From Deltaproteobacteria bacterium (GTDB lineage Bacteria > Desulfobacterota > Syntrophia > Syntrophales > JACQWR01), in NCBI GenBank assembly GCA_026388415.1, contig JAPLJV010000023.1, positions 39,170 to 103,169 on the forward strand: a stretch of 64,000 nucleotides of DNA, given 5' to 3'. Below the pieces are notes generated by a model. That model was not told the DNA's origin. It saw only the letters and a list, made by a program, of their open reading frames with translations, and searched no databases. Positions 24,535 through 61,026 of this stretch are shown here, one piece after another. The stretch's first letter is position 1; each line of letters opens with the position of its first letter. The position numbers and the translations under genes were made by a program.

Positions 24535-25620
24535 GTGATTGTAAGAGTTACCAGCGGCACAGTAATTGGCATAGATGCTTATCCCGTGGAAGTGGAAGTT
24601 GACCTTTCGCTCGGGCTGCCCCAGTTTTCCATGGTGGGCCTCCCTGACGTAGCGGTCAGGGAAAGCAAGGATCGCATTCGGGCCGCCATTAAAAATTCCG
24701 GCTATAAATTCCCGCGCCACCGCGTGACGGTCAACCTGGCCCCGGCCGACATCAAAAAAGAGGGGACGGCCTTTGATCTGCCCATTGCCGTCGCCATCCT
24801 GGCGGCGGAGGGCAACATAGATCCGTTGTCTCTGCAACAATATGTTTTTATGGGAGAACTTTCCTTAGACGGAGGCATCAAAGGTGTCCACGGCGTTCTG
24901 CCGGTGGCCCTGCAGACGGAAAGGATGGGCAAGAAGGGGATTATTGTCGCGCGGGAAAACGCCGCGGAAGCGGCCTTTGTACAGAGTATCGAGGTCATTG
25001 CCGTGGATCGGCTCTCCGATGTGGTGGACTTTCTGGCCGGCCGGCTGGAGATCAAGCCGCTACAGATAGATTTACAGGCGGCATTCCGTCATACCAGCGA
25101 ATATCCCTTTGATTTCAGTGATATCCGTGGACAGGAACAGGCCCGGCGGGCCTTGGAAGTGGCGGCAGCGGGAGGCCACAACATTATTATGATCGGCCCT
25201 CCTGGTTCCGGTAAAACCATGTTAGCCCAGAGATTAGTGACCATCCTGCCGGAACTCTCCCTGCCCGAAGCGATGGAACTCACCAAGATATTTTCCGTGG
25301 CCTCCCTTTTGAGCAGGAATGAGGCCGTGCTTCTGAGCCGGCCTTTTCGGTCGCCTCACCACACCATTTCTGATGCGGGGCTGGTAGGCGGCGGCCATAT
25401 CCCCAAACCGGGGGAGATCAGCCTGGCCCACCACGGAGTCTTGTTTCTCGATGAACTCCCGGAGTTTAGAAAAAATGCCCTCGAGGCGCTGCGTCAGCCC
25501 TTGGAAGAGGGTACGGTGACCATCACCCGATCCTCGATGACGGCCACTTATCCGGCCAAGTTCATGCTGGTGGCGGCGATGAATCCCTGCCCATGTGATT
25601 ACGCAATTTACAGAAACTGA
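24535..25620 (+). pseudogene. comM: comM (YifB-type Mg-chelatase-like AAA ATPase), 5' part interrupted by the element
   Basis: 361 codons from a GTG start; chromosomal sequence ends at 25592. It has the ComM N-terminal domain ([19 protein letters not shown]), Walker [15 protein letters not shown] and Walker [12 protein letters not shown], and stops after the conserved AAMNPCPC block. The last residues (DYAIYRN) come from the element, which supplies the stop. The missing C-terminal part is at 61157-61628. Removing 25593-61156 restores AAT CCC TGC CCC TGC GGT in frame (NPCPCG). comM encodes a branch-migration helicase used in natural transformation and is a known integration hot spot. Confidence 0.95.
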
Positions 25621-27121
25621 GCGTGATACTGCTAACCCCATCTTTTGTAATAGACAATTCTGGAATTTGACTTCTAAGAAATTCACGCTTCTGCGTGGGT
25701 GTCCAGAATGGGAATTCGACCAATGTCTCCACTACCGACTTGATATCTTTCTCAATATTAATTTTATCCTGTAATAGATATGAATCTTCAATCTCAACCA
25801 AACTTTGTTTCAAATTATTTAATTCATCGTTTAATTTGTTCACTTTTTGCTCAAGCTCCTCCCTCGGAAAAAGATCCTTGACAAAGAGTTCAAGATATTT
25901 TGATTTTTCCTTTTCTTTTGACTTAATTTTTTCCTTAGTTCTTACAGCCTCCCTCTCATTATCTTTAGCATGCGTCTTATTCAGCGCCATTTCCAACATT
26001 TTTTTTATATAGTCAACTTCTGTCAATTTTTCACTTAGTAATGACGTAATTGATGTTTCAATGGAATTTTTTGGATAATATGAAGATGAGCAAGCACTTT
26101 CATGTATTCGATTCTTAAATAGATAGGATTTTGAACGACAATAATAGTAATCTTTATTATGATTACTTCCCCCAGAGGTTGAATACAGGATAGCACCACA
26201 TTCACCACACCTCAGAAAACCTGAATAGAGAAATCTCTGACCCTTTTTTGATTTCTTCTTGTGATATTCAACATTTTTTTTGTTGATTATTGTCTGGATT
26301 TTATTAAAACTAGCTTCGTCAATTATAGGGTTCTCTATTACCTTTACCCTTATTATTTCATCCAGTTTTCGTTTAACCTTTTTTCTATCCCCCTGTCTTC
26401 CATCATTCTTAATACCTTTAACAGAACTTCTCTTTTCCGTATAAGTGCGAAACCCCATATAAATCTCATTTTTAAGCAAATTTGCAATAGTTCTGTGTTG
26501 AATACCCGTTAATCGTTCAAGTTCTCTATAATTCTGTATGCCTCCAACAAGGAAAAGTTCAAAAAGATTCTTAACCTCGTCAATCTTGTCATTATAGGAG
26601 AACTTCTTACTATCACGATCATAACCGACACCCCGTGGCAACGTAATCGCACTATTTGGGTGTTCACCAGCTTTTCTTTTTATTTCTTTAGCTTCCAACA
26701 TGCGCTTTTTAATCTGGGTAAGTTCATTACCGCTGATGATAGCCTGGATACCAGCTAAAAGAAAGCCACCTTGCGTTGTGAGGTCAATTATTTGATCGGA
26801 AGTGTAAATTAAGGTATTCGTTGTTATAAAATTTTGTAGCAAAGCAAAATCATTGAAATTATCCGGGCGGAAAAGCCTATCGTGATCAGCGACAACGACC
26901 CCTTTTATATCATCTCGCTCAATGAGAGATAAAAGTTTTCCCATTTCTGGTGTATGCATCACGGATGTCCCAGAAACATCAATAAGCTTGATTACCTCGA
27001 CAACCTCCAATTTATACTTAGCAATTGTACGGGCATTGGCTTCTTTCTGCCTTGCCAAGCCGGCACGGTCATCGTTACTCTGTTCTTGTGTCGATACTCT
27101 CAGAAATTCGATAGCTTTCAT
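25562..27121 (-). CDS. Large serine recombinase (element integrase)
   Basis: 519 residues. The N-terminal resolvase catalytic domain has the nucleophile Ser in [11 protein letters not shown] recombinase domain follows, then a zinc beta-ribbon ([13 protein letters not shown] ... YYYCRSK ... SACSSSYY) and a coiled-coil-rich C-terminal region (about residues 395-465). It catalyses integration into comM. Its 3' end crosses attL: the codons after CKLRNHM (GRDSSPPPA and the stop) are antisense comM sequence, so the C-terminus depends on integration state. In the circular form the frame would continue into the HTH at 60880-61026. A 67-codon gene overlaps its start. Confidence 0.95.
25583..25615. other. 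attL (left junction)
   Basis: comM sequence ATCCCTGC is followed by the CC core (25591-25592) and the element arm, whose outer part GATTACGCAATTTACAGAA (25597-25615) is an imperfect inverted copy of the attR arm. Both arms start 4 nt from the core. The integrase coding frame crosses this junction on the minus strand. Confidence 0.85.
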
Positions 27122-27278
27122 CGTTCATCCCACAGATTTGTCTTGCATAGTTTTTAATAATTATATCGTCATCCCCAAGTAAGGCTTGTTTCAATAAGAA
27201 AAGTGTCTTGCTCCTCTCATTGGCAATATGTGAAACAATACTTAATCCTTCCTGAATGATTCTGTCATCGTATTCCAT
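27075..27278 (-). CDS. Small protein upstream of and overlapping the integrase gene
   Basis: 67 residues (starting MEYDDRIIQEGLSIVSHIAN), charged, probably helical, no family recognised. It overlaps the integrase start by 47 bp and is served by a good promoter immediately upstream, so it is likely the first gene of the integrase transcript. A regulatory or directionality role is possible but unsupported. Confidence 0.6.
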   Translation of the reverse strand: MEYDDRIIQEGLSIVSHIANERSKTLFLLKQALLGDDDIIIKNYARQICGMNDESYRISESIDTRTE

Positions 27279-27291
27279 TTTACCATCTCAC

Positions 27292-27320
27292 ATTATACAA
27301 TCAAGTATCTATAATAACAA
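27292..27320 (-). promoter_or_regulatory. Sigma-70-type promoter for the integrase operon
   Basis: On the minus strand, TTGTTA (27320-27315), a 17-bp spacer and a perfect TATAAT (27297-27292) precede the ATG at 27278 by about 13 bp, implying a very short leader. Confidence 0.7.
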
Positions 27321-27404
27321 GGCATTTTAACATATTTATAACTTATTGACTAAATATCCAGTCCAGGTTTAAAGGGCCTTTTTACCCCGACCACTTTTTT
27401 GATA

Positions 27405-28487
27405 CTATCCGACCTCGTCATGATCCCGATGGGGAATTTTACTACCAGGTGACGATACCGCTTGTATGATTGACCTGAGTTCGTTAAGTTCAGTCAAAAG
27501 CTCTTCAGCTTCATCATGTGATAGGTCCTCGACTTTATCCTTTAATTCAACCTTCAGGTCTTGCATCTGCTTCAATAAACGTCGTGTCGGTGCACTTCTC
27601 CGGTTTGTGTCCCCGGTTGATGCACAAGATGATCTAAATAGCTCTTCTAACTCACTCTTCGACATTTTGTCTTTCAATGCTTTCCGGCTGATGGCATCAA
27701 AATCTGTATGGCCAATGTTGTTAGCCAGGACGTAACCGAAGGATTGTTTCAATTTGTTTTCCTCGATCGCTTGTCGAATATTTGCTGGGAGCTTTAATAG
27801 GCACAGATGGTTCCTGAGGGTGCTGGCTGAGCATTCGGTATCTTCCATAATTGACTTAACAGTTGCGTCAATTTTGTTCTGCTGCCTTGATTGTCTGTCA
27901 ACATTGTTGAACAACTTGATCATGTCATCGACCTCAAGTTCTGGTCTCAATGAATTAAGGCGTTTGTGGATTTCGATTGCAAAAGGTATTGCTTCATAAT
28001 CAGAGCGCTTAATGTTTTCGATAATAGGAAAAGCATCGGTGATTGATTCCGCCGGTTTTACCTCCGCACGTATCGTCTTGAGGCCAATTAACTTGCATGC
28101 AGCAATTCTCCGATTTCCAAAAACGGTTTTATACCTGTCTCCTTCTCGTTTGACATTGATCACTTGAAGAAGCCCGTTTTCATGGATAGATTTTGCAAGC
28201 TGTTTCATGGCCCTGTTATCTGGATTACACCTCCAAGTGTGTTCATTAAAATCGATCTCGCTAATGCGGATGTTCAGGTATTCCGGAGTTGTCGCATCAG
28301 CAGGACTTAATGAAGTAGCGGGATCAATTTTTCCTTCTTCGCTTGACTTTAGTGGACTCTTCGGTGAAGTGCTCTGCGGAGTCCGATTCGCTTGTGACTC
28401 ATTGCTTACCGGCACTCTATGGGTGTTGCTTGGTGCAGGTTGTGTAATCTTATTACTTGTTTGTGAACGCTGTCGATCCATGAACAT
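27405..28487 (-). CDS. ParB/Spo0J-like nuclease-domain protein
   Basis: About 360 residues from the ATG at 28487, which is preceded by AGGAGG. A low-complexity, Ser/Pro/Gln-rich N-terminus (about 80 residues) leads to a ParB N-terminal domain (LAKSIHENGLLQVINVKREG; GNRRIAACKLIGLKTIRAE) and a central HTH region (SASTLRNHLCLLKLPANIRQAIEENKL). A C-terminal charged coiled coil follows. Such proteins bind centromere-like sites in plasmid partition or regulate transcription. No ParA ATPase is visible in the element, so a role in plain partition is uncertain. Confidence 0.85.
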   Translation of the reverse strand: MFMDRQRSQTSNKITQPAPSNTHRVPVSNESQANRTPQSTSPKSPLKSSEEGKIDPATSLSPADATTPEYLNIRISEIDFNEHTWRCNPDNRAMKQLAKSIHENGLLQVINVKREGDRYKTVFGNRRIAACKLIGLKTIRAEVKPAESITDAFPIIENIKRSDYEAIPFAIEIHKRLNSLRPELEVDDMIKLFNNVDRQSRQQNKIDATVKSIMEDTECSASTLRNHLCLLKLPANIRQAIEENKLKQSFGYVLANNIGHTDFDAISRKALKDKMSKSELEELFRSSCASTGDTNRRSAPTRRLLKQMQDLKVELKDKVEDLSHDEAEELLTELNELRSIIQAVSSPGSKIPHRDHDEVG

Positions 28488-28599
28488 AATTTTACTACCT
28501 CCTATCTGAATTATTTGCTTTATAGAGAGCAAAATGGAGGCCAATAAATTATTTCAACATTTACTGATAGTTACAAATGATGTTTTGGAGGATTATGTA

Positions 28600-28653
28600 A
28601 TGGGAAGAGAATTTATCGTAGCGGGAAGAGTTTCAAGCAATTTGGGAAGATAA
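28600..28653 (+). CDS. Possible 17-residue micro-ORF with strong ribosome site
   Basis: MGREFIVAGRVSSNLGR is preceded by TTGGAGG at good spacing, on the plus strand between two minus-strand genes. Nothing else supports expression. Confidence 0.25.
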   Translation: MGREFIVAGRVSSNLGR

Positions 28654-28665
28654 GAAATTGCGCTA

Positions 28666-30144
28666 TTACTCATCTGTCCCTTGAGTCACTATTTCTGAAA
28701 ATACATCCATCGGTGTTTTTACTTCATAATTTATTTTTCCTGGATATTCATAATGGTAGTTCTTCTTGAAGTTATCAGGCGATAACTCCTTGTCTCCGAT
28801 GTGTAAATAATCAATGATCTTTTTTTTAGAACACTTGTAGTTCTGTGCAAGAACGACAATCTCATAAAATCTCAAACGCTTTTCTAAAATATCTTGACCA
28901 CGTTTCTCTTTTGCTTCATGATGTTTCTTCGATAGCTTCTTATGCAAAATGAATGGATCGCTCTCGCCACGTTTTCGCAAAATTTCCTCTATGGCCTGGG
29001 CATCGTTATGCTTTCTAAGCAAATTGATGTCATGATGATCTTCGTCAGAAAAACCGTAGTTTGATAGTCTTCCAAATTGATCATAGTACAGATCGGACTT
29101 TTCATCGGCATCACATTCATCCAAATAAGTTATGTCTTCTTCAATGAACTCTAAAGCCTCACCTAATAAATTTTCTGACTCCTTGAGTGTCGTCCGAATA
29201 GTCGTTAAAGTATCATACTCTAAATTTTCAATACTTCTTTTAAATTCCTCATGAATGTTGACATCTTTGTATATATTACTAATACCGTTGAGCGTTATAC
29301 TCTCCAACTTCTTAACGGTTTTTTTAGCCTCTTCCAGAATTTCAACATCGCCAATTATCTTGGGGAATTTTTGGAGCTTGCTGGAATTCAATTTTCTTAG
29401 TCGCAGTTTGACGATTTCCAGAATTTCATAGAAATCTTTTTTAATCAGAATCTGGAGCTCTCTAACACTTCCGGGAAAATCATAAAAATATAATAGAAAC
29501 TTTACTCGTGGATCTAATTTTATACCTAGTTCCTTTACATAATAGTTTAGCAAGCAAATTAGATCACCGGGATATTTCAACGGATTTTGTGTTCGTATCA
29601 CCTGAGAACTAATACGATCATAAAGGTCTGCCCGAAATTCTCCTTTCTCGATCTTGTCTTCTAAGTCTATGTTCGTAGCGGCAATTATTTTAACATTGGC
29701 CTGCTTTGGCTTATGCTCCTCCCCCACTCTTGCATAAGACTTATCATTTAAAAACCGTAGAAACTTTGCTTGATGAAAAAGAGACAAGTCCCCTATCTCA
29801 TCAAGAAAAACTGTACCATTTTTTACGTTACCTATGATTCCGCCGCTTTCAACTGCCCCGGTGAAAGCACCCTTCTTGATTCCGAAGAAAATACTTTCAA
29901 AAAGTTGCTCAGGAATCCCCGCACAATTAGCCGCAATAAACGGTTCTTGTTTCCATTCGCTTTGAAAATGTATATTCTGTGCGATATTTTCCTTACCAGA
30001 ACCTCTTGGACCTAATATTAAAACAGTATCATCCTTTTCCTGAGCTGCTTTTGTTATTAATTCTCGGAGCCGGTTCATAGAATCTGACACACCAATAATC
30101 CGATATTTGTCATACATGCTTTTGGGCGACGCTGATTCAGCCAT
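28666..30144 (-). CDS. Sigma-54-activator-type AAA+ protein of the element
   Basis: About 492 residues from the ATG at 30144 (AAGGAG upstream). The AAA+ domain at the N-terminus has Walker A LGPRGSGKENIAQNIH, the sigma-54 contact loop GAFTGA and Walker B GTVFLDEIGDLS. There is no N-terminal sensor domain. The C-terminal 290 residues are charged and lack an obvious FIS-type HTH, although SKKKIIDYLHI could belong to a helix-turn-helix. It may activate element genes from sigma-54 promoters; the target is unknown. Confidence 0.88.
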   Translation of the reverse strand: MAESASPKSMYDKYRIIGVSDSMNRLRELITKAAQEKDDTVLILGPRGSGKENIAQNIHFQSEWKQEPFIAANCAGIPEQLFESIFFGIKKGAFTGAVESGGIIGNVKNGTVFLDEIGDLSLFHQAKFLRFLNDKSYARVGEEHKPKQANVKIIAATNIDLEDKIEKGEFRADLYDRISSQVIRTQNPLKYPGDLICLLNYYVKELGIKLDPRVKFLLYFYDFPGSVRELQILIKKDFYEILEIVKLRLRKLNSSKLQKFPKIIGDVEILEEAKKTVKKLESITLNGISNIYKDVNIHEEFKRSIENLEYDTLTTIRTTLKESENLLGEALEFIEEDITYLDECDADEKSDLYYDQFGRLSNYGFSDEDHHDINLLRKHNDAQAIEEILRKRGESDPFILHKKLSKKHHEAKEKRGQDILEKRLRFYEIVVLAQNYKCSKKKIIDYLHIGDKELSPDNFKKNYHYEYPGKINYEVKTPMDVFSEIVTQGTDE

Positions 30145-30286
30145 GAGAATTCTCCTTATTCTAACCATATGATATCAGTTTTATTGGTAAGTGAAAATAT
30201 AATGTTTTGTCGAGGATGAATAGTGCGTTTATAGTATTGCCGGGGGCAACGCCATAAACCATATATTCTATTTTAAAGGAGATTAT

Positions 30287-30454
30287 ATGATAAGAAAAAG
30301 GAAATACAAGAGTTATCCTGCGTTGTTCGTATCAGAGCAGAGGGAAAATGAAAAGTACGACGCCCCGGAAAAGTCAACGCAACATAGCAAAAGGGCCAAG
30401 GGCAACGATGGCCTTAAATTCTCTGCCAAGGCGAGAAAAACTAAGAAAACGTGA
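30287..30454 (+). CDS. Small basic protein
   Basis: 55 residues with an AAAGGAG ribosome site. Very rich in Lys/Arg (starts MIRKRKYKSYPALFVSEQ, ends KARKTKKT). It could bind nucleic acid. It is divergent from the sigma-54-activator gene. No family recognised. Confidence 0.55.
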   Translation: MIRKRKYKSYPALFVSEQRENEKYDAPEKSTQHSKRAKGNDGLKFSAKARKTKKT

Positions 30455-31116
30455 CCTATCTCCTGGTGGTTGATCTATTCATTCTGCTTAAAACCAAAAA
30501 GGGGCAAAATCCTTACGTTTAAACGCCCTATCCCTGCACTCAAACCACCCTGTTGAGCCGTCAAAACACCCCCGAAATATTCACCATGTACTAACTACGG
30601 CAAAATCAGTCCACGAAGGGAAATCCAGCTTTTTCCGTCAAATCCTGAAATTATTAGCCTGAAGATTGGCGGTATTTCGGCAAATTAATTGATCCGGGAT
30701 GACGGTCTAAGCACTCGAAATAACAGGACTAAAAAAGTGATTTAAGAAAATGTATGAAATCGTAAAAATACTGTGTTTTAAGGTATTGTCGGCTATTTCA
30801 GTATGCGGAGCGGTTGGATACGGTGCTATGCTTAGGAACTTCACTAATGCTTTTGCTCATCGGCTAAATTCACATGCTTCGATTCGTAAGGTGGAAAAAG
30901 CACATACAAAAGGCATCACCATCTCTACACGCTTCTATATATAGCTTGATCGGGTGAGATGTAATGCCTGGCCGATTTGTTGCGGAACAGGTGACCGATA
31001 TGAAAAGTAATATCCATTGAATATATTTTCTTGATTTATTCATTACTTGCGCTTATAAAGCTAAAATTCAGATGATCCCTCTAAAATTTATATTCTAAGA
31101 TATAGAGGAAGAAGTT
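30455..31116. other. Gene-poor stretch of about 660 bp
   Basis: Only a weak 64-codon frame (30750-30944, starting MYEIVKILCFKVL, with a hydrophobic segment and no good ribosome site) is present. I see no repeats, tRNA or strong promoter. The right end must hold the promoter for the secreted-protein/hxs region. Confidence 0.4.
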
Positions 31117-31750: not shown

Positions 31751-32095
31751 ATGCAAACAATATCAGATTTTATCTGTGATTCCGGTTCTGGTCGGGGCAA
31801 TATAACAGTCAGCACCAGTGTATACAATCTCGAAGTTATCCGCTCAGCTTCTTATCAATTTACAGGAAGCTACCATGTCCTAATAACGCCGAATACTGAC
31901 AATTCAGTGACAGTTATCTTTGAGGCGAAGGACAAAGCCAAAGATGTCAGTGAAGACCTAAAAGATTTTGTAAACACTCTCATAGACCATCAGGTCAGAC
32001 TACAGCTCGATAAGGCAGATGGCAAGATACGTGACTTGATTGTCGCCCATGCCTTTTCACCTCTTGACCTCAATAAGGAAATAGGATCTCTGTGA
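31751..32095 (+). CDS. hxsD: His-Xaa-Ser system protein HxsD
   Basis: 114 residues with a GAGGT ribosome site. It matches the small HxsD family: an N-terminal STSVYNLEVIRSASYQFTG strand-helix, a beta-rich middle and a C-terminal VRDLI-type motif (KIRDLIVAHAFSPLDL). In hxs loci this small protein accompanies the two radical SAM enzymes and may present or recognise the precursor; its function is not established. It overlaps hxsB by 4 bp (GTGA). Confidence 0.82.
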   Translation: MQTISDFICDSGSGRGNITVSTSVYNLEVIRSASYQFTGSYHVLITPNTDNSVTVIFEAKDKAKDVSEDLKDFVNTLIDHQVRLQLDKADGKIRDLIVAHAFSPLDLNKEIGSL

Positions 32096-33555
32096 GCGAC
32101 CAACAACAGCAATTACTTCCTTTCCAGTTCTCTCGCTTTGATAGCGATGACTACTTACTCGTCAATGAAAGCGGCGAATACATATTCCTCAGCAGGGACG
32201 ATTTCCACAAGTTTATAAATGGCGACTTGACTCATGATTCTCCCTCTTACTACGACCTAAAGAGCCGACATTTCCTTAATACGGAACATCTACCTGAAAC
32301 TCTGGAACTTATTTCGGCTAAGTACAGAACTCGGAAGAAATTTATCTCCGATTTCACAAGCCTTCATATGATGGTTATCACTCTTAAGTGCTGTAATGAT
32401 TGTTCATACTGTCAGGTCAGCGCCGAAGGGGACGATGCGAAGGGCTTCGACATGTCACCCGAAGTGGCTCGCCGTGTTGTTGACTATATCTTCAAATCTC
32501 CTTCCCCTTTGATAAAAATAGAGTTTCAGGGCGGTGAGCCTACCCTTAACTGGGAGACGCTTAAAGAGACTGTCCTTTATGCAAAGAAGGTTAACAAGAA
32601 ATACCAGAAGCATCTTGATTTCGTCGTCTGTACCAACCTCGTAAAGGTTGACAGGCAGCAGCTAATGTTCTTTAAAGAACATAGCATACATATATCTACC
32701 TCTCTTGATGGCCCCCGTGACCTTCACGACAAGAACCGGATACTGAGAAGCGGTGGCGGTACCTACGATACTGTTATCAAGAACCTTCACAATGCCTTCG
32801 ACATCCTTCTTCGTGGCCAGGTGAATGCCCTCATGACAACCACTATAGATAATATCGACCACTTGCAGGAGGTTATCGCTGAGTATGTCCAGCTTGGCTT
32901 CAATGGGATATTCATCAGGTCACTCAATCCTTATGGATTAGCTGCCAAAAACTCGGAGCACATAGTGTATACGGTAGAACATTTTGTCGAGAATTTTGAA
33001 AAAGCGCTTAATTTCATTATCCAACTTAATCTTAACGGCACAAGGTTCGTAGAGTTCTACACGAACCTTCTGCTTACCCGTATCCTGACACCCTTTTCCA
33101 CAGGGTTTGTCGATCTCCAGTCTCCATCAGGTGCTGGCATTTCAGGCGCGATTTATGACTACAATGGAGATGTTTTCCCCGCCGATGAAGCGCGTATGCT
33201 CGCCAGAATGGGCAACCGCCGTTTCTGCCTTGGAAATGTTTTCAAAGATTCCTATGAAAGCATTTTTGGGGGGAATCTACTCCGCGAGATTGTCAGAAAG
33301 TCATGCGTTGAGGTCATGCCTTATTGCAGCTCTTGCGTTTACCGCACCTACTGCGGTTCCGACCCTGTACGCAACTATCTTGAGACAGGCGACCTTATTG
33401 GCAAACGTCCGGACAACGATTTCTGCAAGAAAAACAAGCTAATCTTCGATATGCTGTTTAAGAAACTGAAGCACAACGATCTTGCTGAAATGGATGTATT
33501 CTGGTCATGGATTTCTTGCCGGAGTTTAAAGGAAGTGCGCGGTGAAGAAGCATGA
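32092..33555 (+). CDS. hxsB: His-Xaa-Ser system radical SAM maturase HxsB
   Basis: 487 residues from a GTG. Radical SAM cluster motif CCNDCSYC (CX3CX2C) is at about residue 100, EFQGGEPTLNW is the SAM-binding GGE motif, and STSLDGPRDLHD is a typical peptide-modifying radical SAM strand. The C-terminus has a SPASM-type cysteine set (CVEVMPYCSSCVYRTYCGSDP). These features mark an RiPP-type peptide maturase, predicted to modify the His-Xaa-Ser repeat protein. It overlaps hxsD and hxsC by 4 bp each. Confidence 0.9.
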   Translation: MSDQQQQLLPFQFSRFDSDDYLLVNESGEYIFLSRDDFHKFINGDLTHDSPSYYDLKSRHFLNTEHLPETLELISAKYRTRKKFISDFTSLHMMVITLKCCNDCSYCQVSAEGDDAKGFDMSPEVARRVVDYIFKSPSPLIKIEFQGGEPTLNWETLKETVLYAKKVNKKYQKHLDFVVCTNLVKVDRQQLMFFKEHSIHISTSLDGPRDLHDKNRILRSGGGTYDTVIKNLHNAFDILLRGQVNALMTTTIDNIDHLQEVIAEYVQLGFNGIFIRSLNPYGLAAKNSEHIVYTVEHFVENFEKALNFIIQLNLNGTRFVEFYTNLLLTRILTPFSTGFVDLQSPSGAGISGAIYDYNGDVFPADEARMLARMGNRRFCLGNVFKDSYESIFGGNLLREIVRKSCVEVMPYCSSCVYRTYCGSDPVRNYLETGDLIGKRPDNDFCKKNKLIFDMLFKKLKHNDLAEMDVFWSWISCRSLKEVRGEEA

Positions 33556-34676
33556 AACAATTTAAAGGGATAGCCGAGAACATAGAGACTCCAATTCTTG
33601 GATTGGTGACACGCAACCCGCTATCACTGTCGAGGTTTAAAAGCGTGCTTGTCACTGACGAAATCTCGTTATTGTCAAGGGGTTTTGCAGGACTCATAGC
33701 GAAAGATTTTGGTAAGAATAATAGCTCGTTACCAAAAGCCAAAGTTACTGAAGAAGTTACAGACAAACTGGAGGAGGGGGATTGTGTTCTTATTGATACC
33801 GACGGCACCATAACTGTTGTCTGGGGGAAAAAAGCCCCAATGAATCCGCTCCTTCTGACAGAGGTGTGTGATTGCCGTTGTCTTATGTGTCCACAACCAC
33901 CGAAAGCACACGATAGAACTCTAACGGAGACAAGCAAGAGAATTCTTAATCTTGTCAAAATCGAAAGCAATCAAACTATATGTTTGACTGGTGGTGAACC
34001 TACCCTACTGCAAGAAGATTTCTTCGACATCCTTGGGGTGATCAACAAAAAACATCCGAAATCAACCGTTATGCTTCTCACAAACGGCAAGTCATTCGCC
34101 AACTTTGAATTCACAAAACGTTTTATATCCGCAAGACCACAGGATTTTCTTACCTGTGTTTCTTTACACAGCGATGTAGACGAGATACATGACCGGATTG
34201 TAGGCGTAAAAGACAGTTTTTATAAAACAGCAATGGGCCTCCAGAACCTTGCCCGTTTCCGGGAGAGGATTGAAATCCGCGTAGTTGTCAGCAGTATTAA
34301 CGCTCACCGCCTTGAATCCATTGCAACCTTCATTTACCGGAACTTTCCCTTCATCAAACACTGCGCCTTCATGGGGATGGAGATAACCGGACTTGCTCGC
34401 GATAATTATGGAACTGTTTGGATTGACCCATATGAATACCGCGACGAGCTTTCACGGGCGATTAAAGTGTTGAGCCGTGCGGACGTGAACGTTTCTATCT
34501 ATAACATCCCGCTATGCCTCGTTGAACCGAAGTCACGGAGTTTCGCAAGGCAGTCAATTTCTGGATGGAAAAATGATTACCTCTCAATATGTGATGGGTG
34601 CTCAGTTAAATCAAGATGCTGTGGTATTTTCACAACCTCCGGATTGCATCAAAGTCTTTACATTTTCCCGCAATAA
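33552..34676 (+). CDS. hxsC: His-Xaa-Ser system radical SAM maturase HxsC
   Basis: 374 residues. The cluster motif is in CDCRCLMCPQPP, the GGE motif in ICLTGGEPTLLQ, and LTCVSLHSDVDEIHD lies on the barrel. An N-terminal extension of about 110 residues precedes the radical SAM domain, as in HxsC. It acts with HxsB on the HxsA precursor by family inference; the chemistry is unknown. It ends 200 bp before hxsA. Confidence 0.9.
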   Translation: MKQFKGIAENIETPILGLVTRNPLSLSRFKSVLVTDEISLLSRGFAGLIAKDFGKNNSSLPKAKVTEEVTDKLEEGDCVLIDTDGTITVVWGKKAPMNPLLLTEVCDCRCLMCPQPPKAHDRTLTETSKRILNLVKIESNQTICLTGGEPTLLQEDFFDILGVINKKHPKSTVMLLTNGKSFANFEFTKRFISARPQDFLTCVSLHSDVDEIHDRIVGVKDSFYKTAMGLQNLARFRERIEIRVVVSSINAHRLESIATFIYRNFPFIKHCAFMGMEITGLARDNYGTVWIDPYEYRDELSRAIKVLSRADVNVSIYNIPLCLVEPKSRSFARQSISGWKNDYLSICDGCSVKSRCCGIFTTSGLHQSLYIFPQ

Positions 34677-50037: not shown

Positions 50038-50655
50038 ATGAACAGATACGTCATTACCAGGGATAAGTTTATGTCAATAAAAGAAAAGAACAAGCTATTG
50101 CGTTGCTGTAAGAATGGCGCAAGTGCCGATTTATCAGGACAAAGAAAAACTTGGGTGAACCGTTATATGCTTATTCATCTGGCATTGAATAGCGGTTTGA
50201 GGGTTAGTGAAATCGCTTATCTTAAAATAATGGATGTGCGCCTGAGCGGTAAAGAAAATTACCTTATAGTACACGGCAAGGGGGGAAGAAAAAGGGACGT
50301 CTATCTTGATGATGAAATTGTCACGCACCTGAAAAGTTATATCGAAATAAAAAAGAAGGTATGGCAGGAGCCTATTGATGCCCTTGCCCCATTATTTAGC
50401 GGCAGGGCTGGTAATCACTATACGACAACTGCATTAGAGATCAGTTTCAAGAAAGCAGCAGAAAAGGCCGGCCTTCCTAAATATTACTCGATTCACAGTT
50501 CAAGACACACTTACGCAACCTTGCTTCTGGCTAAATCAAAGAACATTCGCTTTGTTCAAAAGCAGTTAGGCCATGCCAGTATTGCAATGACTTCCCTTTA
50601 TGCCGATGTTTTGCCAGAGATGAACCAGAACCTGGCCAATGCCATTTTGAAATAA
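50038..50655 (+). CDS. Tyrosine recombinase, catalytic domain only
   Basis: 205 residues, GGGAGG ribosome site. All catalytic residues are present: Arg in SGLRVSEIAYL, Lys in GKGGRKRDVY, HSSRHTYATLL, His in LGHASIAMT and the nucleophile Tyr in SLYADV. It lacks the N-terminal core-binding domain of Xer/phage integrases. It may resolve circular multimers or move a cassette; integration itself is explained by the serine recombinase. Confidence 0.9.
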   Translation: MNRYVITRDKFMSIKEKNKLLRCCKNGASADLSGQRKTWVNRYMLIHLALNSGLRVSEIAYLKIMDVRLSGKENYLIVHGKGGRKRDVYLDDEIVTHLKSYIEIKKKVWQEPIDALAPLFSGRAGNHYTTTALEISFKKAAEKAGLPKYYSIHSSRHTYATLLLAKSKNIRFVQKQLGHASIAMTSLYADVLPEMNQNLANAILK

Positions 50656-54147: not shown

Positions 54148-54827
54148 TGAAAACTGGATATTCGCGTGAGGATTTGAAATCTGTAGCGGCTATTTTTTTG
54201 GGGAGTAGGAAGATGGTTACGGTTCGGCAAAGGGTAGAATATTGTGATGTTTGCGTTACGTTTAAAGAGTGGCTTGCTAAAAATGGGCATCGGTTCAATC
54301 GAAAATACAAAATACGCCACTACAATAAGGGGACAGCTCTACGCATTTACTTTGAGGATGTCACCCCGGAGATGAATTGTTATCTGTATAACGAGGGAAT
54401 GGGTATTGCTGTCAATTTTAAAAAAATATGTTGGGATATCATTAAAGATTTTGACTTCTTCATCAGGCGTAATAGAAAACGAAAATACTATTGCGCCTTG
54501 TGCAAGGAACCAAAGTTTTATGATACGCCTCAGGAGCTGTTAATAGAGCATTCTTTTGAGAATTTCCTGGAGTGGGTAAATGAAAACGTTACTCCCTTTC
54601 ACGCCCTTGAGCTGACCCAATGTAAAGGCATGACATCTGCTCGTATTATCGACACACGCGAACCAGATATAAGGCATGAAGCAGAAAGAGAAGAATTCAA
54701 GGACTTCTTGTCAGGCTTAAGGAAGATAAGCCCTGGCAACCCGCCTATGTTTGAGAATTTCGACAACATGAAGATAGTGATCATTCCCGTCATTAAAGAG
54801 AAAGAGGGTTGTCATGGCAAGCTTTGA
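54147..54827 (+). CDS. Hypothetical two-part protein
   Basis: 226 residues, coupled to the methyltransferase through TAATG. The N-terminal part is basic (NRKYKIRHYNKGTALRIYF), and the middle has CALCKEPKFYDTPQELL followed by helix-rich sequence. No family recognised; the coupling suggests it assists or uses the methyltransferase. Confidence 0.65.
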   Translation: MKTGYSREDLKSVAAIFLGSRKMVTVRQRVEYCDVCVTFKEWLAKNGHRFNRKYKIRHYNKGTALRIYFEDVTPEMNCYLYNEGMGIAVNFKKICWDIIKDFDFFIRRNRKRKYYCALCKEPKFYDTPQELLIEHSFENFLEWVNENVTPFHALELTQCKGMTSARIIDTREPDIRHEAEREEFKDFLSGLRKISPGNPPMFENFDNMKIVIIPVIKEKEGCHGKL

Positions 54828-55104
54828 AGCCCACTGCGAACAATGTGTAAAAGAAATGGGAGATGCCTTTCCAGAAGTCCATTTGTGGCTCGACGCTTTT
54901 TTCGAGCAAAAGCCATACGGTACAAGGCATAGGCATTTACGGCACCATCTGGAAGGAATTGACGAAGTCAAGAGAAAATGGGGAGACAAAGCGGCAATGG
55001 CTGCCGCAATCCATATCAGGCAGGACTTAGATGGTGAAGGGTGGCCACCGGATACACCGATACCGGCAGACGGCAGAGCATATAAAAAGGCCGGATTGTG
55101 GTAA
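54814..55104 (+). CDS. DUF6915-type small protein
   Basis: 96 residues overlapping the previous gene by 14 bp. HLWLDAFFEQKPYGTRHRHLRHH and EGIDEVKRKWGD are typical of a small His-rich family (DUF6915) found on plasmids and phages. The histidine cluster could bind metal. Function unknown. Confidence 0.72.
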   Translation: MASFEAHCEQCVKEMGDAFPEVHLWLDAFFEQKPYGTRHRHLRHHLEGIDEVKRKWGDKAAMAAAIHIRQDLDGEGWPPDTPIPADGRAYKKAGLW

Positions 55105-55197
55105 TTATGTGCCCTGACCGTGATTTTACTTTGCTTAAAGCACCTAAATAAACTCTTGCCCTTCATTCCTCCCAAGCTGATTGATCTGCCCAAATAA

Positions 55198-55241
55198 AAG
55201 TATATAACGTACCGTTGCGTGGAACGATCACGTGATATGCT
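55198..55241 (+). repeat. Copy 2 of the 44-bp intergenic motif
   Basis: Partner of 53447-53490, with the same TGGAACG and GTGATAT blocks at identical spacing. It lies about 90 bp upstream of the GNAT-like gene. Two genes preceded by the same motif suggest coregulation. Confidence 0.55.
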
Positions 55242-55332
55242 TTATTTAAAAGGGGGACAGTTGCGATTTTGATATGGATGTCATGGTGATAAAGAAGTTT
55301 GAAGACGATTTAATAGTTGCATGGAGACGACG

Positions 55333-56862
55333 ATGAATAAGATAGAGACAATTATAGAATATAGCCGGAACAGAATTCAGAAACGAATGTATTTGAAAGT
55401 TAAACCCGATATTGCCGTAAGAATCAGAAATATTGTAGGGCCGAATAGTAAGGGCCAGTACAAGATCGAACCAAGCCAGTGGAACGTAATAGAACCATCG
55501 GAATTTTGGCGGGAAGAAGGATACTTCAACGGAATTCAAGAAAGCTTAGAGGAAGAATATCCTCAACTGTTCAAGGATAGAGACAGAAAAGTTCCGTTCA
55601 GCGCATATTTGATTGAACCAATCGTTAGCTTCGGCAGTTCGGCAATGACAATTTCTGGTGGGCTTAACTGGGTGGTAATGGGGGTCTTGAAAAATGGGGA
55701 GAAATACTGTGCCATTCTTGATGTGGAAGTACGCCCTTTGCTTCGGCGATGCGGTCTTATGACTCTCCTTAAGCACGTCGAAATTGAGCTGGCAAAGCGT
55801 GAGAAATGCGATTTCATTCACACTTGGCACTCAAGTGACAACCCAGATTTCAATGCGGCTATTGTTCCGGGCTTAAAAAGTGGTTTCATACTGTATCATG
55901 GCCCCATTAAAGATGGAGAAGATTATGAAGACCGTGGCTGCGTTCATCTACGATATTATTTTAACCGAACCAAAAGACGGAATGTCCGGGTGTCATTTAA
56001 AGATGATAAAGAGTTTATCAGCCCTGGAGATAATGACGGTATCATAAATTATCTTGAGAATTGCCCTGACAAATATCCCGGTACAACGATCAGCAAAATT
56101 GAGGAATACGGAAAAACTAATACCAAGCTTATAAAGGGAAAGACAAAACGAATCACAGAAAATGTAAGGGGGAAATCAAGCAAGCAACGGGTCTTCATAG
56201 CCGAAGGTGCGGTCGGTTTTGAATACACTAGACAAAGAAATACCTACCGGATCGGTGATGTCCTGTCATTTTGCCCTTGCGTACTGATTGACCATTATGT
56301 GAAAAGCAACGAAGATGCGCCTTATATGAATCACGTCATAAATAACATCTATGAATTTCAATTTAAGCCGATATCGGTAATTCAGGTTAAACAATCGGGT
56401 GGGGCTGCCCGACAGGACTATGTATTAGAAATATTACCTGGCTTAAGGTTGTTGTACACCGGACGGGAGATGAACAAAAAACACTGTTTGAAGGCTGACC
56501 AATGGTACAAGGGGTACGGGAGGCTGTTTATTTGCGATCATCGAGACTCCCTTAACGGCAAGGCCTCAAAGCATGTCAAAGAGCTTGTGGCAAAGGGGAA
56601 ATTAGTTGGTATTTTAAATGACCAGCTACAGGATGACTTTTCACACAAGTATGCGAACCAAGTAAAACAGTTCCGGTACGGGAAAGACGTATACTGTCCA
56701 GAGGACGCCCTGGAATGGTTCGGCTATTATAAGGACATTGATGAATTCAAGAAAAGTGTGGCCACTTACTTGGAAAATCCTGTCGAATTAGAGTCTACGG
56801 ATTCCCCGGAAGCAGTCGGCTACAGTCATAATTTGATTTTTTGTATTGATGTTATGGTATAA
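55333..56862 (+). CDS. Large protein with GNAT-like N-terminal half
   Basis: About 509 residues from the ATG at 55333 (GGAG closely upstream; an in-frame ATG lies at 55321). Residues about 95-205 look like an N-acetyltransferase fold: KYCAILDVEVRPLLRRCGLM, a T-L-L-K helix, and WHSSDNPDFNAAIVPGLKSG. The C-terminal 300 residues are unrecognised and basic in the middle (KLIKGKTKRITENVRGKSSK). Function unknown. Followed closely by a DEDDh exonuclease. Confidence 0.62.
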   Translation: MNKIETIIEYSRNRIQKRMYLKVKPDIAVRIRNIVGPNSKGQYKIEPSQWNVIEPSEFWREEGYFNGIQESLEEEYPQLFKDRDRKVPFSAYLIEPIVSFGSSAMTISGGLNWVVMGVLKNGEKYCAILDVEVRPLLRRCGLMTLLKHVEIELAKREKCDFIHTWHSSDNPDFNAAIVPGLKSGFILYHGPIKDGEDYEDRGCVHLRYYFNRTKRRNVRVSFKDDKEFISPGDNDGIINYLENCPDKYPGTTISKIEEYGKTNTKLIKGKTKRITENVRGKSSKQRVFIAEGAVGFEYTRQRNTYRIGDVLSFCPCVLIDHYVKSNEDAPYMNHVINNIYEFQFKPISVIQVKQSGGAARQDYVLEILPGLRLLYTGREMNKKHCLKADQWYKGYGRLFICDHRDSLNGKASKHVKELVAKGKLVGILNDQLQDDFSHKYANQVKQFRYGKDVYCPEDALEWFGYYKDIDEFKKSVATYLENPVELESTDSPEAVGYSHNLIFCIDVMV

Positions 56863-56878
56863 AGAAATAGGAGGTAAC

Positions 56879-57502
56879 ATGGGTAATTACAGCATAGTCG
56901 TACTCGATTTTGAAACAACCGGTTTATCGCCTAACTATGGTGACAGAACCATTGAGATTGGTGCGGTTCTCATACAAAACAATCTGATAGTTGACCGTTT
57001 TCAGAGCCTGATGAATCCCGGTATGAGGATCAGCAGCTTTATTGAGGACTACACCGGTATCACCAATAGAATGCTTCATGGGTCACCGTCAATAGCGGAG
57101 GTAATGAAGAAATTTACTTCTTTCATGGGAAAACACCATCTGGTTGCTCACAATGCCAGCTTTGACAGCCGCTTTCTTGATGCTGAATTAAAACGCATAA
57201 AAAAGCAGCGCAAACAGGAATTTGCCTGTTCAATGCTGGTGTCACGCCGCCTATACCCTGAAGCTCCAAGTCATAAATTGGAAGCCCTCATACGTTATAA
57301 GAAAATCAAGGCTGCCGGGAACTACCATCGAGCACTCGCTGATGCCGAAATGACCGGCCATCTTTGGATAAGCATGGTTAACGATCTTAAATCAGTTTAC
57401 AAATTTAACATCGTTCCGTTTGAGCTTATGCAGCGATTGTCGAAGGTCTCTAAAACAACAGCTCCTACCTTTTTAAAGAAGTTAGCCGGAGAACAGGGTT
57501 GA
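56879..57502 (+). CDS. DEDDh 3'-5' exonuclease (DnaQ/PolIII-epsilon-like)
   Basis: 207 residues from the ATG at 56879 (TAGGAGG upstream). ExoI motif VLDFETTGLSPNYGDRTIEIG, ExoII HLVAHNASFDSRFLDAE and ExoIII YHRALADAEMTG give the complete D-E-D-D-H set. Likely a proofreading or repair nuclease that supports element replication. Confidence 0.9.
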   Translation: MGNYSIVVLDFETTGLSPNYGDRTIEIGAVLIQNNLIVDRFQSLMNPGMRISSFIEDYTGITNRMLHGSPSIAEVMKKFTSFMGKHHLVAHNASFDSRFLDAELKRIKKQRKQEFACSMLVSRRLYPEAPSHKLEALIRYKKIKAAGNYHRALADAEMTGHLWISMVNDLKSVYKFNIVPFELMQRLSKVSKTTAPTFLKKLAGEQG

Positions 57503-58344
57503 ACACGATCAGCTGACCCGTATGGCGCCCCAACTTCTGACTTAATAACAATCTTAAGTAGACGAAATATCGCTTAAAACATACCTTTCCGTCCTTCAAG
57601 GCACAGAGTACTTGTTACCGCATTTTTAGTAAACGCACAATTTAGTTAACGTTTTATACAATCGTCATAACCAGAGGCAATATCGTGATTGTTACTGACT
57701 TTTCCCGGATAACACGTGAATTTCCGGGTAAATATATCAAAATATCATGACAATTAACCAAACATTGAGTCACTTGGTCGATATGGGCCGGTTAACGTCA
57801 CCAGGATAGCTTAAAATCGGTTATATGAGCATAAATCCGGGGTCACTGATATCATCAAGTTTAGTTTTCAGGCGGACGAAGCAAAACTCATGTTGGAGGT
57901 GACAACTAACTGTACTCTATCCGATATTTCTTTACTGTGATATAGAAGTAAATATCGAATATTTTAAAGTGACAGGATTAGATTTTGAAGTGAGTATTAT
58001 TCCCTGCCGGGTTAATTAGTCCCACGAGTTTTTATCTTACAAATTCTGTTCATTTCCAAGCAGAGTGAAAATCCTTGCTGTTTTAGGCACAGTTTTGGCT
58101 AAGGATCGGCTCCGGGATGGCAGGGATTGACCCTTAATAATGAGGTGCGTGGTATGGCAAGGAAAGGCGGTGATATTTGTATTAAAATAGTCTGGGCTTG
58201 CCAGGTTTGCCACCTGATTTGACATATATATTTATGTTTATTGTTTTCACCGTAAACTCATTTAAATATATGACAACAATACATGGCAAACCTGGCAAGA
58301 TCGTTTTTAACATGCCTGTTAGCTGTTTTTCATCAATTGCATGG
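57503..58344. other. 842-bp non-coding region next to the primase gene, candidate replication origin
   Basis: No credible gene. It is A+T-rich with five GTCAC/GTGAC words (57769, 57797, 57842, 57899, 57969) in about 205 bp, where fewer than one is expected by chance. Near the primase end is a perfect 16-bp inverted repeat. Position, composition and short repeats fit an origin, but this is inference. Confidence 0.45.
58197..58299. repeat. Perfect 16-bp inverted repeat, 71-bp spacing
   Basis: CTTGCCAGGTTTGCCA (58197-58212) and TGGCAAACCTGGCAAG (58284-58299) are exact reverse complements separated by very A+T-rich DNA, just beyond the stop of the primase-helicase gene. It could be a recombination site, protein-binding pair or long-loop terminator. 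Confidence 0.8.
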
Positions 58345-60606
58345 TCACTTGAGACCAATCCCCACAAAGGTCCGTTCTTTCCCGCCAGGACGTTTTTCCG
58401 TAAGTTCAGGATGATTGATCAATAGTTGCTTGTAAAAAGTTCTATCGGTCAAAGGCTTGATCCTGTTAGTATGACACCAATCGACGAATTCCGAATAAAG
58501 ATCAAGTTTCCTAATAGATTTGCTATCTCTTAAAATGCATCGGTCTTCAACAAAATTGAGGACTGGATCTACCGCTTTAAGGAAGGTCTTCTTATCTTTT
58601 TTGACCTGCAATGATTCACGAATATTCTTATTCTCAAGGACCACCCTCCGGAACCCTTTCAGTGCCCAATTAAAAATTCCCGGAAGTTCCTTCGTCAATT
58701 TATCTTCGAGTTCTTTATCAGCTGACATTTCGTCAAAAACAGCCTTGAATTCAACGACAATGATACGTCTGACAAAAGCATTACTTCGGTCAGTAATAAT
58801 TGGGGTCATGTTCATACTGTAGATGTGTTTTGCGATAGGTCTGAACGAAATAGGCTTGTTGAATTTTCGATCAGCCTGCACAGTATCTCCGGCAATTACC
58901 TGCCGCCAAACTGAATTCTCAATTTTGTTACCCTGAATTTCAGAGCTTACGTTTAGGAGCTTGTCCTTTAGCGTCCCTAATAAGAATTTATCAGTTAAAT
59001 TTGTTGGTTGCAGCGATGCTACATTATCTTCACCAACAAGCCTTGTAATAATATTGACGAAAACGCTCTTGCCATTACCTCCTTTGCCAGTGAGCAAAAG
59101 GCACTTGTGAATATGAATATTCGGATAGAAACAGTACCCCGAAAAATCCCTGACTGTTTTAATTTTCTTTGGATCGTCCGGAAATACCTCAACGAGAAAC
59201 TGCCGCCACCGTGGACATTTCGCTTCAGGATCATAAGCTATAGGCATCTGATATTGGGAATAATATTTTTTATCGTGAGGCAAAAGTTCCATCGTCAAAA
59301 GGTCTAACATTCCGGTCCGCATGTTAATCAACAATGGATTGCGTCCGACTTTCTCTAAGTCCACATAAGTCTGATACCTTAATATATCCATAGCATTCTG
59401 GACGAAATGCCGTTGCGCCCTATTTCCCAACAACTTAACCATCATCTGCCCGATGCCGAAGTCTTTTTCATGGTGCCACACCCCATCGGGTCGGTATAGA
59501 TAAAAGCCGCTACCGTCATGCAAAATATCATACGATTTTATTATATGATCAACTAGATTCATTGGTATGAATTTGTTTTTATGATCAAAAAATTCATCCT
59601 TGCCCTTCGATTTTGCGAGTTCCATAGAATTTATAGATTCGACGATACGATTTATTTCCGATTCCTCCAGAGGGGGACTGTTTCGCTTGTTCCAATCATA
59701 AAGTAGGACTTTGACCTCTCCCAAAGGTAACCTTTTGGCTAAAAAGTGACCAGCTAATCGGGCTGCGGTATCGTTTCTCTTCCCTCTCAGAACACCTTGC
59801 ATTGCCTCCATGATCCAATTATCAGTGCCCTTTGGCGGCTCTAATTTGCCTTCTACAGCTTGCACGCCGCAAGTCGAAAGCTTATTTTTGGCAATAATGT
59901 TATCAACCATTGCCTCCTTGATAAATATTATGGTTTTGTAGAAATCAGTTCGCTTTTTGTAAGGTCTCATTTTGTCTTTTGGGTTGAGAAATACACTATT
60001 GCCTTTCTCGACGGCTTTACCCCAGAAAGGTACAGCAATAAGGTTGCCTAGCATTTTCCCTGATAAATGATCTTGATTCGGAAAGAATCTGCAAAAAGAC
60101 GAATGAGTCTTTGAAATACCTGAACGAGCGAGAATTAGATTGCCTATCTGCCTTGCCTTAGATGCTAGTATTGGATGCTCGAAAAACATCCAGACATGGT
60201 AGCCTTTCCCTGATTTTGATCGCTCAATGTATGCAAATATACCGAGATCCTTAGCAGAATCGACGTATGCATTAGCATCTGAGAAAGGGTCTATCTTTTC
60301 AGCCTTCTCACCAGTATGGTTGTCAAAATCGATCACTAAGAAGCTCGTTGTTTTATCTGGCTGAAGGGGATAAACACCAAGAAGAATTTCACCTTCAATG
60401 TGTTGCCTCACAGCTTCATCGTCCAAGCACCTGTATTGACGATGCCGACAACCAGCACATGGCTTTTTGCACACATCTGGTTTCCCTTCGTTTTTACAAA
60501 CTGGAGAAAAGCCGATTGATCCATCTTCCTTTTTATAAGCTCTTGCATAAACATCCTTCCTACAATTAAAAACTTTTAATGTTTTTGAATATTTCGACTT
60601 CCTCAT
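58345..60606 (-). CDS. Primase-helicase: AEP primase (TOTE-like) plus D5/P4-type SF3 helicase
   Basis: 753 residues from the ATG at 60606 (TGGAGG upstream). The N-terminus has a cysteine cluster (CKNEGKPDVCKKPCAGC) and an archaeo-eukaryotic primase domain with the metal pair in VIDFDNHTG and the SGKGYHVWMFFE His motif, as in TOTE-type primases. The middle is a primase C-terminal helical region. The C-terminal SF3/D5-like helicase (about 500-640) has Walker A TGKGGNGKSVFVN and NMTPIITDRSNAFVRRI. It should start and unwind replication of the excised circle. Flanked by a candidate origin. Confidence 0.9.
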   Translation of the reverse strand: MRKSKYSKTLKVFNCRKDVYARAYKKEDGSIGFSPVCKNEGKPDVCKKPCAGCRHRQYRCLDDEAVRQHIEGEILLGVYPLQPDKTTSFLVIDFDNHTGEKAEKIDPFSDANAYVDSAKDLGIFAYIERSKSGKGYHVWMFFEHPILASKARQIGNLILARSGISKTHSSFCRFFPNQDHLSGKMLGNLIAVPFWGKAVEKGNSVFLNPKDKMRPYKKRTDFYKTIIFIKEAMVDNIIAKNKLSTCGVQAVEGKLEPPKGTDNWIMEAMQGVLRGKRNDTAARLAGHFLAKRLPLGEVKVLLYDWNKRNSPPLEESEINRIVESINSMELAKSKGKDEFFDHKNKFIPMNLVDHIIKSYDILHDGSGFYLYRPDGVWHHEKDFGIGQMMVKLLGNRAQRHFVQNAMDILRYQTYVDLEKVGRNPLLINMRTGMLDLLTMELLPHDKKYYSQYQMPIAYDPEAKCPRWRQFLVEVFPDDPKKIKTVRDFSGYCFYPNIHIHKCLLLTGKGGNGKSVFVNIITRLVGEDNVASLQPTNLTDKFLLGTLKDKLLNVSSEIQGNKIENSVWRQVIAGDTVQADRKFNKPISFRPIAKHIYSMNMTPIITDRSNAFVRRIIVVEFKAVFDEMSADKELEDKLTKELPGIFNWALKGFRRVVLENKNIRESLQVKKDKKTFLKAVDPVLNFVEDRCILRDSKSIRKLDLYSEFVDWCHTNRIKPLTDRTFYKQLLINHPELTEKRPGGKERTFVGIGLK

Positions 60607-60879
60607 AGTTGCCTCCAATTTAAAATGATTTTTTTATGAGGAATTCGGTGAGTGAAGTCTTGAAAAAGATAAGTTGCTTTTTCAATATAGAATTTTTTGG
60701 TCAACATTTAGTCAACACTTCACTGAAAATATCCCCATGTTTCCTTGGTTTACCCCGTACTGCTCTTCTAAACGAAACATGAGGTAACTATTCAAAATAT
60801 ATGTTTCTTTCAGTATCCCTCCTTTCCCTTGTATTTCCCACCCATTACACTTCAAATCCGGTGTTGGGCGCTAAAACCG
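60607..60879. other. Upstream region of the primase gene
   Basis: 273 bp of A+T-rich DNA between the primase start and the HTH gene stop. No gene or repeat is evident; the primase promoter (minus strand) must lie here. Confidence 0.4.
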
Positions 60880-61026
60880 CTACAGCTTAATAATTTCGTT
60901 TACTTCACTTAGCGTAAATATTCTTTTATCACCTAATCTTTGGGGTTCTGGGTAACGTCCCTTCCTGAACCTGCTTCTCAATGTATCTGGCCGTATTTTT
61001 AAAACTTTACATAAATCTTTAGTCAT
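60880..61026 (-). CDS. AlpA/HTH_17-like small DNA-binding protein (excisionase candidate)
   Basis: 48 codons from the ATG at 61026; the frame is open much further upstream. MTKDLCKVLKIRPDTLRSRF, then GRYPEPQRLGDKRIF, is a winged-helix excisionase/AlpA-type domain. The conserved YY preceding the ATG (KNYYMTKDL) resembles the normal domain start, so the true start is probably upstream. The ATG has only a distant GAGG. Joined through attP in the circular element, this frame is continuous with the integrase gene (43 linking codons, no stop). In the integrated form upstream sequence is antisense comM. It may be the recombination directionality factor. Confidence 0.75.
   Translation of the reverse strand: MTKDLCKVLKIRPDTLRSRFRKGRYPEPQRLGDKRIFTLSEVNEIIKL

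Follow-up and report, generated by a model that had tools for sequence, protein, structure and literature searches.

Serine integrases insert mobile elements into chromosomes and take them out again; a central question is how they keep the two reactions separate, and the answer known so far is that an additional factor does so. The locus described here raises the question of whether a single integrase gene could encode one protein in the free circle and another in the chromosome. We analyzed a 64-kb stretch of DNA (the window) from a Deltaproteobacteria bacterium (GenBank assembly GCA_026388415.1, contig JAPLJV010000023.1, positions 39,170 to 103,169), in which the gene comM is split by a 35.6-kb mobile element (25593-61156 in window coordinates). 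A gene for a large serine recombinase (integrase, int) lies at one end of the element, and an open frame for a winged helix-turn-helix (HTH) domain lies at the other. In the chromosome the gene encodes an integrase of 519 residues that ends in nine comM codons, and the circle would probably encode one of 601 residues with a C-terminal winged-helix domain.

The integrase gene in the chromosome and in the predicted circle

The integrase matched the Pfam families Resolvase (2.6e-15), Recombinase (4.9e-7) and Zn_ribbon_recom (1.7e-8), all exceeding their gathering scores, and a PHROG integrase family at 7e-58. The order of the resolvase, recombinase and zinc-ribbon domains fits a large serine recombinase, and all three are retained in the 519-residue form. 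In the chromosome, int is read on the minus strand, leaves the element, enters comM and stops after nine codons of comM antisense, GRDSSPPPA. This agrees with the preliminary description of the window, which was made from its letters and had the integrated integrase end in nine codons from comM. A comM-antisense tail in the same frame ends 62 of the 88 protein rows related to this integrase (regular expression search, window included); fragments and members with other ends are among the remaining 26.

Joining 61156 to 25593, as in the circle, gives the stop-free reading ...CKLRNHM-ATVSQFTEQG...KNYY-MTKDL.... The preliminary description had proposed that this join stays open for 43 codons into an HTH of 48 codons and that a fused protein of about 600 residues would result. 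Both points hold at the level of sequence: the minus strand from 61155 has no stop before or within the HTH frame, and the predicted circular form has 510 + 91 = 601 residues, the 91 codons after the crossover codon being the 43 of the linker and the 48 of the HTH.

The crossover site

Six elements could be read at both ends, namely that of the window, Desulfovibrio sp. A2 (L002/L079), L003/L091, L004/L090, G1054 (L095/L116) and G923 (L097/L114), and for each we used the register in which comM again reads AAMNPCPCG.... In all six, GG on the int strand is common to the left and right ends of the integrated element (attL and attR) and comM is restored in frame. A crossover at this GG reproduces the join as it was first placed. 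The arms of the predicted attachment site of the circle (attP) form inverted repeats about GG, with identities, out of 28, of 17 in the window, 20 in A2, 19 in L003, 16 in L004, 14 in G1054 and 17 in G923, where about 7 are expected by chance. The window's predicted attP reads TGTAAATTGCGTAATCACAT-GG-CTACGGTTTCACAATTTACCG on the int strand. The pattern of a serine integrase, an identical 2-bp core in a roughly palindromic attP, is present in these sites.

Other placements of the core were rejected. A second GG, six bases on, is also common to all six elements, and a core there breaks comM in each of them. With TTAC as the core the frame is kept, but comM would have Asp in place of Gly. CA is not common to attL and attR in L003, L004 and G923. 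Left out of the comparison were L005, whose comM 3' match lies 500 kb off, with more comM sequence and a masked run beside it; L006, whose comM 3' match lies in uninterrupted comM on another contig; L059, with no comM 3' match in its record; and G1141, with no int found in its assembly.

Desulfovibrio sp. A2 has the same layout as the window. Its int adjoins one part of comM, and at a distance of 41 kb a linker and HTH in the same orientation adjoin the second part. The viral contig L076 carries an integrase that is 98% identical to that of A2 in the best segment, and here the junction is contiguous: it differs from the predicted attP of A2 at 1 base of 62, has an arm identity of 20/28 and continues in frame into the HTH. 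A further protein, P0052, is a natural integrase-HTH fusion of 611 residues with the motif DLGL before the HTH. The predicted junctions of all six elements and the contiguous junction of L076 place attP within int, and very likely attP lies inside the 3' end of the element's own serine-integrase gene.

Conservation of the linker

A protein search with a profile of four tails recovered five short predicted proteins among 5784 candidates. Three of these, P0090, P0091 and P0092, are 82, 68 and 59% identical to the linker and HTH of the window over 97, 99 and 93%, and the remaining two are more distant. In the linker, the identities of the five to the window are 27/41, 26/41, 18/40, 10/38 and 12/38. 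The initial residues of P0090 and P0091 end in NSR, and the linker follows. The DNA of G1141 encodes a protein of P0091's type, and in it the residues ending in NSR are comM antisense; thus, they mark the attR of an integrated copy. P0090 resembles this layout, judged as a protein. Between the window and G1141, the ratio of nonsynonymous to synonymous substitution rates (dN/dS) is 0.19 over 41 codons of the linker (16.5 synonymous and 17.5 nonsynonymous differences) and 0.36 in the HTH. Given that 77% of sites are nonsynonymous, a one-sided binomial test yields P of 0.0005-0.0017 in the linker and 0.07 in the HTH. By this pairwise comparison, the linker is under purifying selection.

The open frame could in principle be accidental. 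The preliminary description had put the chance of 43 codons without a stop at 0.13, times one third for the frame, and a frame of this length can indeed stay open by chance. Shuffles of diverged linkers were mostly weak, with 1 to 2787 of 5000 reaching the score and two of six pairs below 1%. Against this, G1141 and P0090-P0094 conserve the linker, A2 has it as well, and in L076 and P0052 the junction is contiguous. The case for conservation rests on the closer relatives recovered with the tail profile and not on the shuffles. It supersedes the earlier estimate and in our view refutes chance, to which we give next to no weight. The comparison supports the fusion across attP as a conserved coding arrangement.

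The positions of possible start codons bear on where the linker is translated. In the integrated window its first 34 codons contain no possible ATG, GTG or TTG start, and neither do the 18 open codons on the comM side of the frame. Before the HTH domain, the linker frame offers only a TTG after 34 codons and an ATG after 43. Since the linker is kept as protein and has no start in the chromosome, translation from int in the circle would be the best explanation. A different possibility is that the HTH is a stand-alone excisionase, translated in the chromosome from the internal ATG at 61026, and that the fusion is a by-product. In the alignment of nine tails, four have this ATG (the Met of YYMTKDL), and in G1141 the sequence AAGGATTATTACATG could plausibly serve as a ribosome site. 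The Met is absent from the other five tails, no good ribosome site was found in the window (GAGG lies about 14 nt upstream of the ATG), and a scan of 60500-61250 found no promoter-like site on the minus strand. The few in-frame starts and the poor ribosome site agree with the earlier remark that the HTH's own ATG is weakly placed. In addition, the linker upstream is conserved as protein although its first 34 codons have no start. We consider a stand-alone excisionase improbable.

Predicted structure and identity of the C-terminal extension

The AlphaFold model of P0052 contains a hairpin (residues 479-497), a loop (501-510) with a predicted local distance difference test score (pLDDT) below 50, a strand (516-527) and the HTH (549-602). 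The model matches serine integrase complexes, with a best Foldseek E-value of 2.4e-21. The tail was modelled without the tail-only rows, which fell outside it in the alignment. The segment CLSLPIIPPY of the window's linker aligns with the predicted beta strand of P0052, and the linker also has the motif NDLGL. From the model, attP is predicted to encode a disordered loop that follows the penultimate strand of the integrase C-terminal part and precedes the last one. On this prediction, integration would cut off that last strand together with the HTH, and the catalytic, recombinase and zinc domains would stay whole.

The HTH had been called excisionase-like in the preliminary description. It matched PHROG 9834, 'excisionase and transcriptional regulator', at 1.9e-6, and Pfam HTH_17 with an E-value of 8.8e-4 and 19.9 bits, below the gathering score of 27 and so short of the curated cut-off. 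In the AlphaFold model of the window tail, the HTH has a pLDDT of about 85-91, and the folds of MerR, BldC and Xis match it about equally and weakly. A search of the sequences of solved structures with the tail gave weak MerR matches (E 0.16 or worse), and the same search with P0001 gave no match at 1e-3. 'Excisionase-like' is apt here only as a loose likeness of fold, shared about equally with MerR and BldC.

These matches bear on a further proposal, that the HTH is a built-in recombination directionality factor (RDF). An excision-biased integrase-RDF would then keep the circle as a plasmid, the plain integrase would keep the chromosomal copy integrated, and each state would maintain itself. 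Engineered integrase-RDF fusions favor attL x attR and show reduced attP x attB recombination, according to PMC5737554, and the element has ParB-like and primase-helicase genes in the style of a plasmid. The difficulty is that the excision-biased form would be the only one made from an incoming circle, which would make integration hard, and that the fold matches to Xis are no better than those to MerR regulators. This proposal seems to us to have a low probability, much like that of a stand-alone excisionase.

Relatives and the evidence against two forms

The assembled DNA establishes the chromosomal form of the gene, both attachment ends, the open and conserved tail and a linker mostly without a usable start; from these we infer the formation of the circle and the production of the long protein. 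Several points weigh against a long circular and a short chromosomal integrase. For all of these elements, the circle, its transcript and its protein are predictions from DNA sequence. Frame shifts upstream disrupt the int of L076, whose contig may be neither circular nor complete. The dN/dS values come from one pair only, and the partner in that pair, G1141, lacks an int in its assembly. Modelled alone, the window tail has no confident strand in the linker. Fused integrase-HTH proteins are rare (one of the 88 rows), which would follow if the sequenced copies are mostly integrated ones, and a protein search with the tail of P0052 returned only P0052. L060 and the chromosomal locus G1037 encode integrase-HTH fusions with a shorter linker that, in alignments, lacks the stretch encoded by attP. 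The comM match of G1037 sits in an open frame of 516 codons and looks intact. Both look like permanent fusions, and G1037 indicates that the HTH can stay on a chromosomal integrase; an HTH on an integrase is thus not in itself the directional switch that the preliminary description had suggested. Finally, the frame of the predicted circle stops without an HTH after 12 codons past the crossover codon in G1054, 18 in L003, 20 in G923 and 27 in L004.

The preliminary description had asked whether the frame from integrase through attP to HTH is conserved in homologs and had counted stops in the linkers of related elements against the fusion. The frame is kept in A2 and the close tails, and four of the six two-ended elements stop early, so that it fails as a general rule and stands for the window's clade. 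G1054, L003, G923 and L004 have attP inside int despite the lack of an HTH, and they share one branch of a 34-row tree. G793 is a fifth integrase without an HTH, and comM sequence is missing downstream of its int. Rows with an HTH (10 are labelled) stand in both large branches of the tree, which requires two changes of this label. We read the HTH as ancestral and lost twice; gains are possible, as the tree was rooted for drawing only. On reading the tails, strand-like sequences such as LVFEVV and KIVIAIL recur even where there is no HTH.

The layout without an HTH suggests a simpler account, in which attP lies in a tolerant loop of the integrase, the long and short forms are both made and do not differ in recombination, and the role of the HTH is confined to regulating transcription in the circle. 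The HTH-less relatives, which retain attP in int, are consistent with this economy, as are L060 and G1037, which retain the HTH on the integrase gene. In phiC31 integrase, the 21 residues past beta strand 14 are reported to be non-essential (PMC5737554). The conservation of the linker and HTH sequences, and the recurrence of the strand-like tails where the HTH is missing, argue against it. This account has the same fusion as our preferred reading and departs from it on function; we regard it as rather unlikely.

Several sets of genomes were searched. The nearest relatives of the window's int are known here as proteins only. In phages and plasmids, no match reached 60% identity, with about 21-28% among the matches listed. 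Neither P0001 nor P0052 brought up a relative in viral scans; the scan with L060 found only itself, that with the int of A2 found L059 and the contig of L076, and that with the tail alignment only the contig of L076. In a sample of the phylum, one of 395 genomes matched, the window's own, and in the order of G003 one of 389, G003 itself. The order to which the window's genome belongs gave 13 matches to the tail profile among 155 genomes at E 0.001. The strong matches (about 1e-42) were confined to the window's own genome and G1141, and the other 11 had E-values of 9e-6 to 9e-4.

More distant relatives have other tails. In a subfamily on viral contigs (L061-L074), eight of 14 loci end in ...[IL]PLNL or similar, and its relatives P0058 and P0068 end in a comM tail; this subfamily probably has the same tail swap without an HTH. 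The long tails of P0018, P0029, P0037 and P0046 resemble the sense strand of comM in another frame (by eye, proteins only), as if the elements had been inserted in the opposite orientation. L007, P0079, P0084 and P0085 have a cysteine-rich C-terminal tail (CxxC...FY...CxxC-like) and not an HTH. In L007, the 5' part of comM lies about 2.9 kb past the int stop; thus, attP is seemingly not inside int in this locus.

A proposed mechanism

In the mechanism that we propose, attP x attB integration would fall to the long form, since an incoming circle can encode no other. The HTH of this form may bind close to attP or to the promoter of int. Once the element is integrated, the short form would keep the catalytic domains and lose the last strand and the HTH. 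Loss of the tail would bias against re-excision and help to hold the element in the chromosome, and a separate factor might later assist the short form in excision. A candidate for this partner, or directionality factor, is the small open reading frame (ORF) overlapping the int start. Its motif, AR[EQ][IL]CG, occurs within 420 bases upstream of int in eight of 22 loci (the window, L002, L003, L006, L060, L076, L098 and L099), in ORFs that overlap int or lie just before it. In the circle, the primase-helicase gene is the next large ORF past the HTH on the int strand, and the scan of 60500-61250 found no terminator-like site; transcription of int could therefore run on into the primase-helicase gene and reach replication. 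The full proposal is that one gene gives two recombinases, chosen by DNA topology: an integrase with its last beta strand and an HTH from the circle, and one with a stub encoded by the host from the chromosome. Recombination would then set directionality and, by read-through, a replication gene, with no need for a separate switch. We put this forward tentatively, as possible but doubtful.

Other features of the element

The coordinates of the annotated parts are collected in Table 1. The element carries ParB-like, primase-helicase, DNA-repair and anti-restriction matches, and no virion genes were found among the PHROGs matches of the 20 element ORFs submitted. By gene content, the element looks plasmid-like. 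A second recombinase gene lies inside it (50038-50655, plus strand), encoding a 205-residue integrase by PHROG (5e-40), which we take to be of the tyrosine type. Two neighboring radical SAM genes are also aboard (32092-34676, plus strand).

Table 1 Features of the split comM locus and its element, in window coordinates.
Feature	Position	Strand	Basis or content
comM 5' part (host)	24535..25592	+	sequence, tblastn against comM of relatives
comM 3' part (host), CGYYGDRRRPC...	61157..61628	+	translation
Large serine recombinase (integrase), integrated form, 519 residues	25562..27121	-	Pfam, PHROG
3' end of int lying in comM, GRDSSPPPA (nine codons) and stop	25562..25591	-	sequence
Predicted crossover dinucleotide in attL	25591..25592	CC on plus strand, GG on int strand	six-element comparison
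Predicted crossover dinucleotide in attR	61155..61156	CC on plus strand, GG on int strand	six-element comparison
Linker, 43 codons ATVSQFTEQG...EVKNYY	61027..61155	-	attP right arm, CLSLPIIPPY and NDLGL
Winged HTH of 48 codons, similar to excisionase and MerR domains	60880..61026	-	Pfam, PHROG, AlphaFold, fold matches
Small ORF overlapping int start, motif AR[EQ][IL]CG	27075..27278	-	motif search upstream of int
Primase-helicase	58345..60618	-	Pfam AEP-TOTE 1.4e-63, D5_N

Discussion

The principle of an attP within a gene is known from other systems; what sets the present case apart is a serine integrase that would exchange its own DNA-binding tail. The suicidal (SSV-type) tyrosine integrases of archaea (PMC8371274) likewise have the recombination site inside the integrase gene, which integration alters. 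In contrast, the enzyme here is a serine recombinase in a bacterium, and only the C-terminal strand and the HTH are predicted to be swapped. The archaeal systems are defined by a tyrosine recombinase whose catalytic part is split off; here, the catalytic part stays whole. In integration-dependent phage immunity (BPs and prophages of Mycobacterium abscessus; PMC4557955, PMC8092301, PMC9934374), attP also lies in a gene whose C-terminus differs between the circular and integrated states. There, that gene is the repressor and not, as here, the integrase. Tyrosine integrases act in the M. abscessus cases, and what is lost is typically a degradation tag (PMC8092301, PMC9934374), whereas here it includes a DNA-binding domain. 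The engineered serine integrase-RDF fusions of PMC5737554 resemble the predicted long form in carrying a regulatory protein on the integrase C-terminus past the last core strand. They are man-made and permanent, whereas the fusion here would be natural, and made and unmade by recombination.

Our literature searches, whose coverage mostly excluded subscription papers, turned up no case of a serine integrase whose own coding sequence contains attP. In PMC6511857, the words 'within the integrase gene' refer to transcription starts and are not a precedent for such an attP.

The integrase genes of this family that have been annotated from integrated copies likely lack their true C-terminus. The predicted natural pair of a long and a short enzyme makes it possible to test for a recombinase that depends on the shape of its DNA, and it points to a tool whose recombinase is altered by the recombination itself. 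If our reading is true, recombination would rewrite the C-terminus of the enzyme, near the point at which the synthetic integrase-RDF fusions are joined, and self-modifying integrases would include serine recombinases of bacteria in addition to the tyrosine recombinases of archaea.

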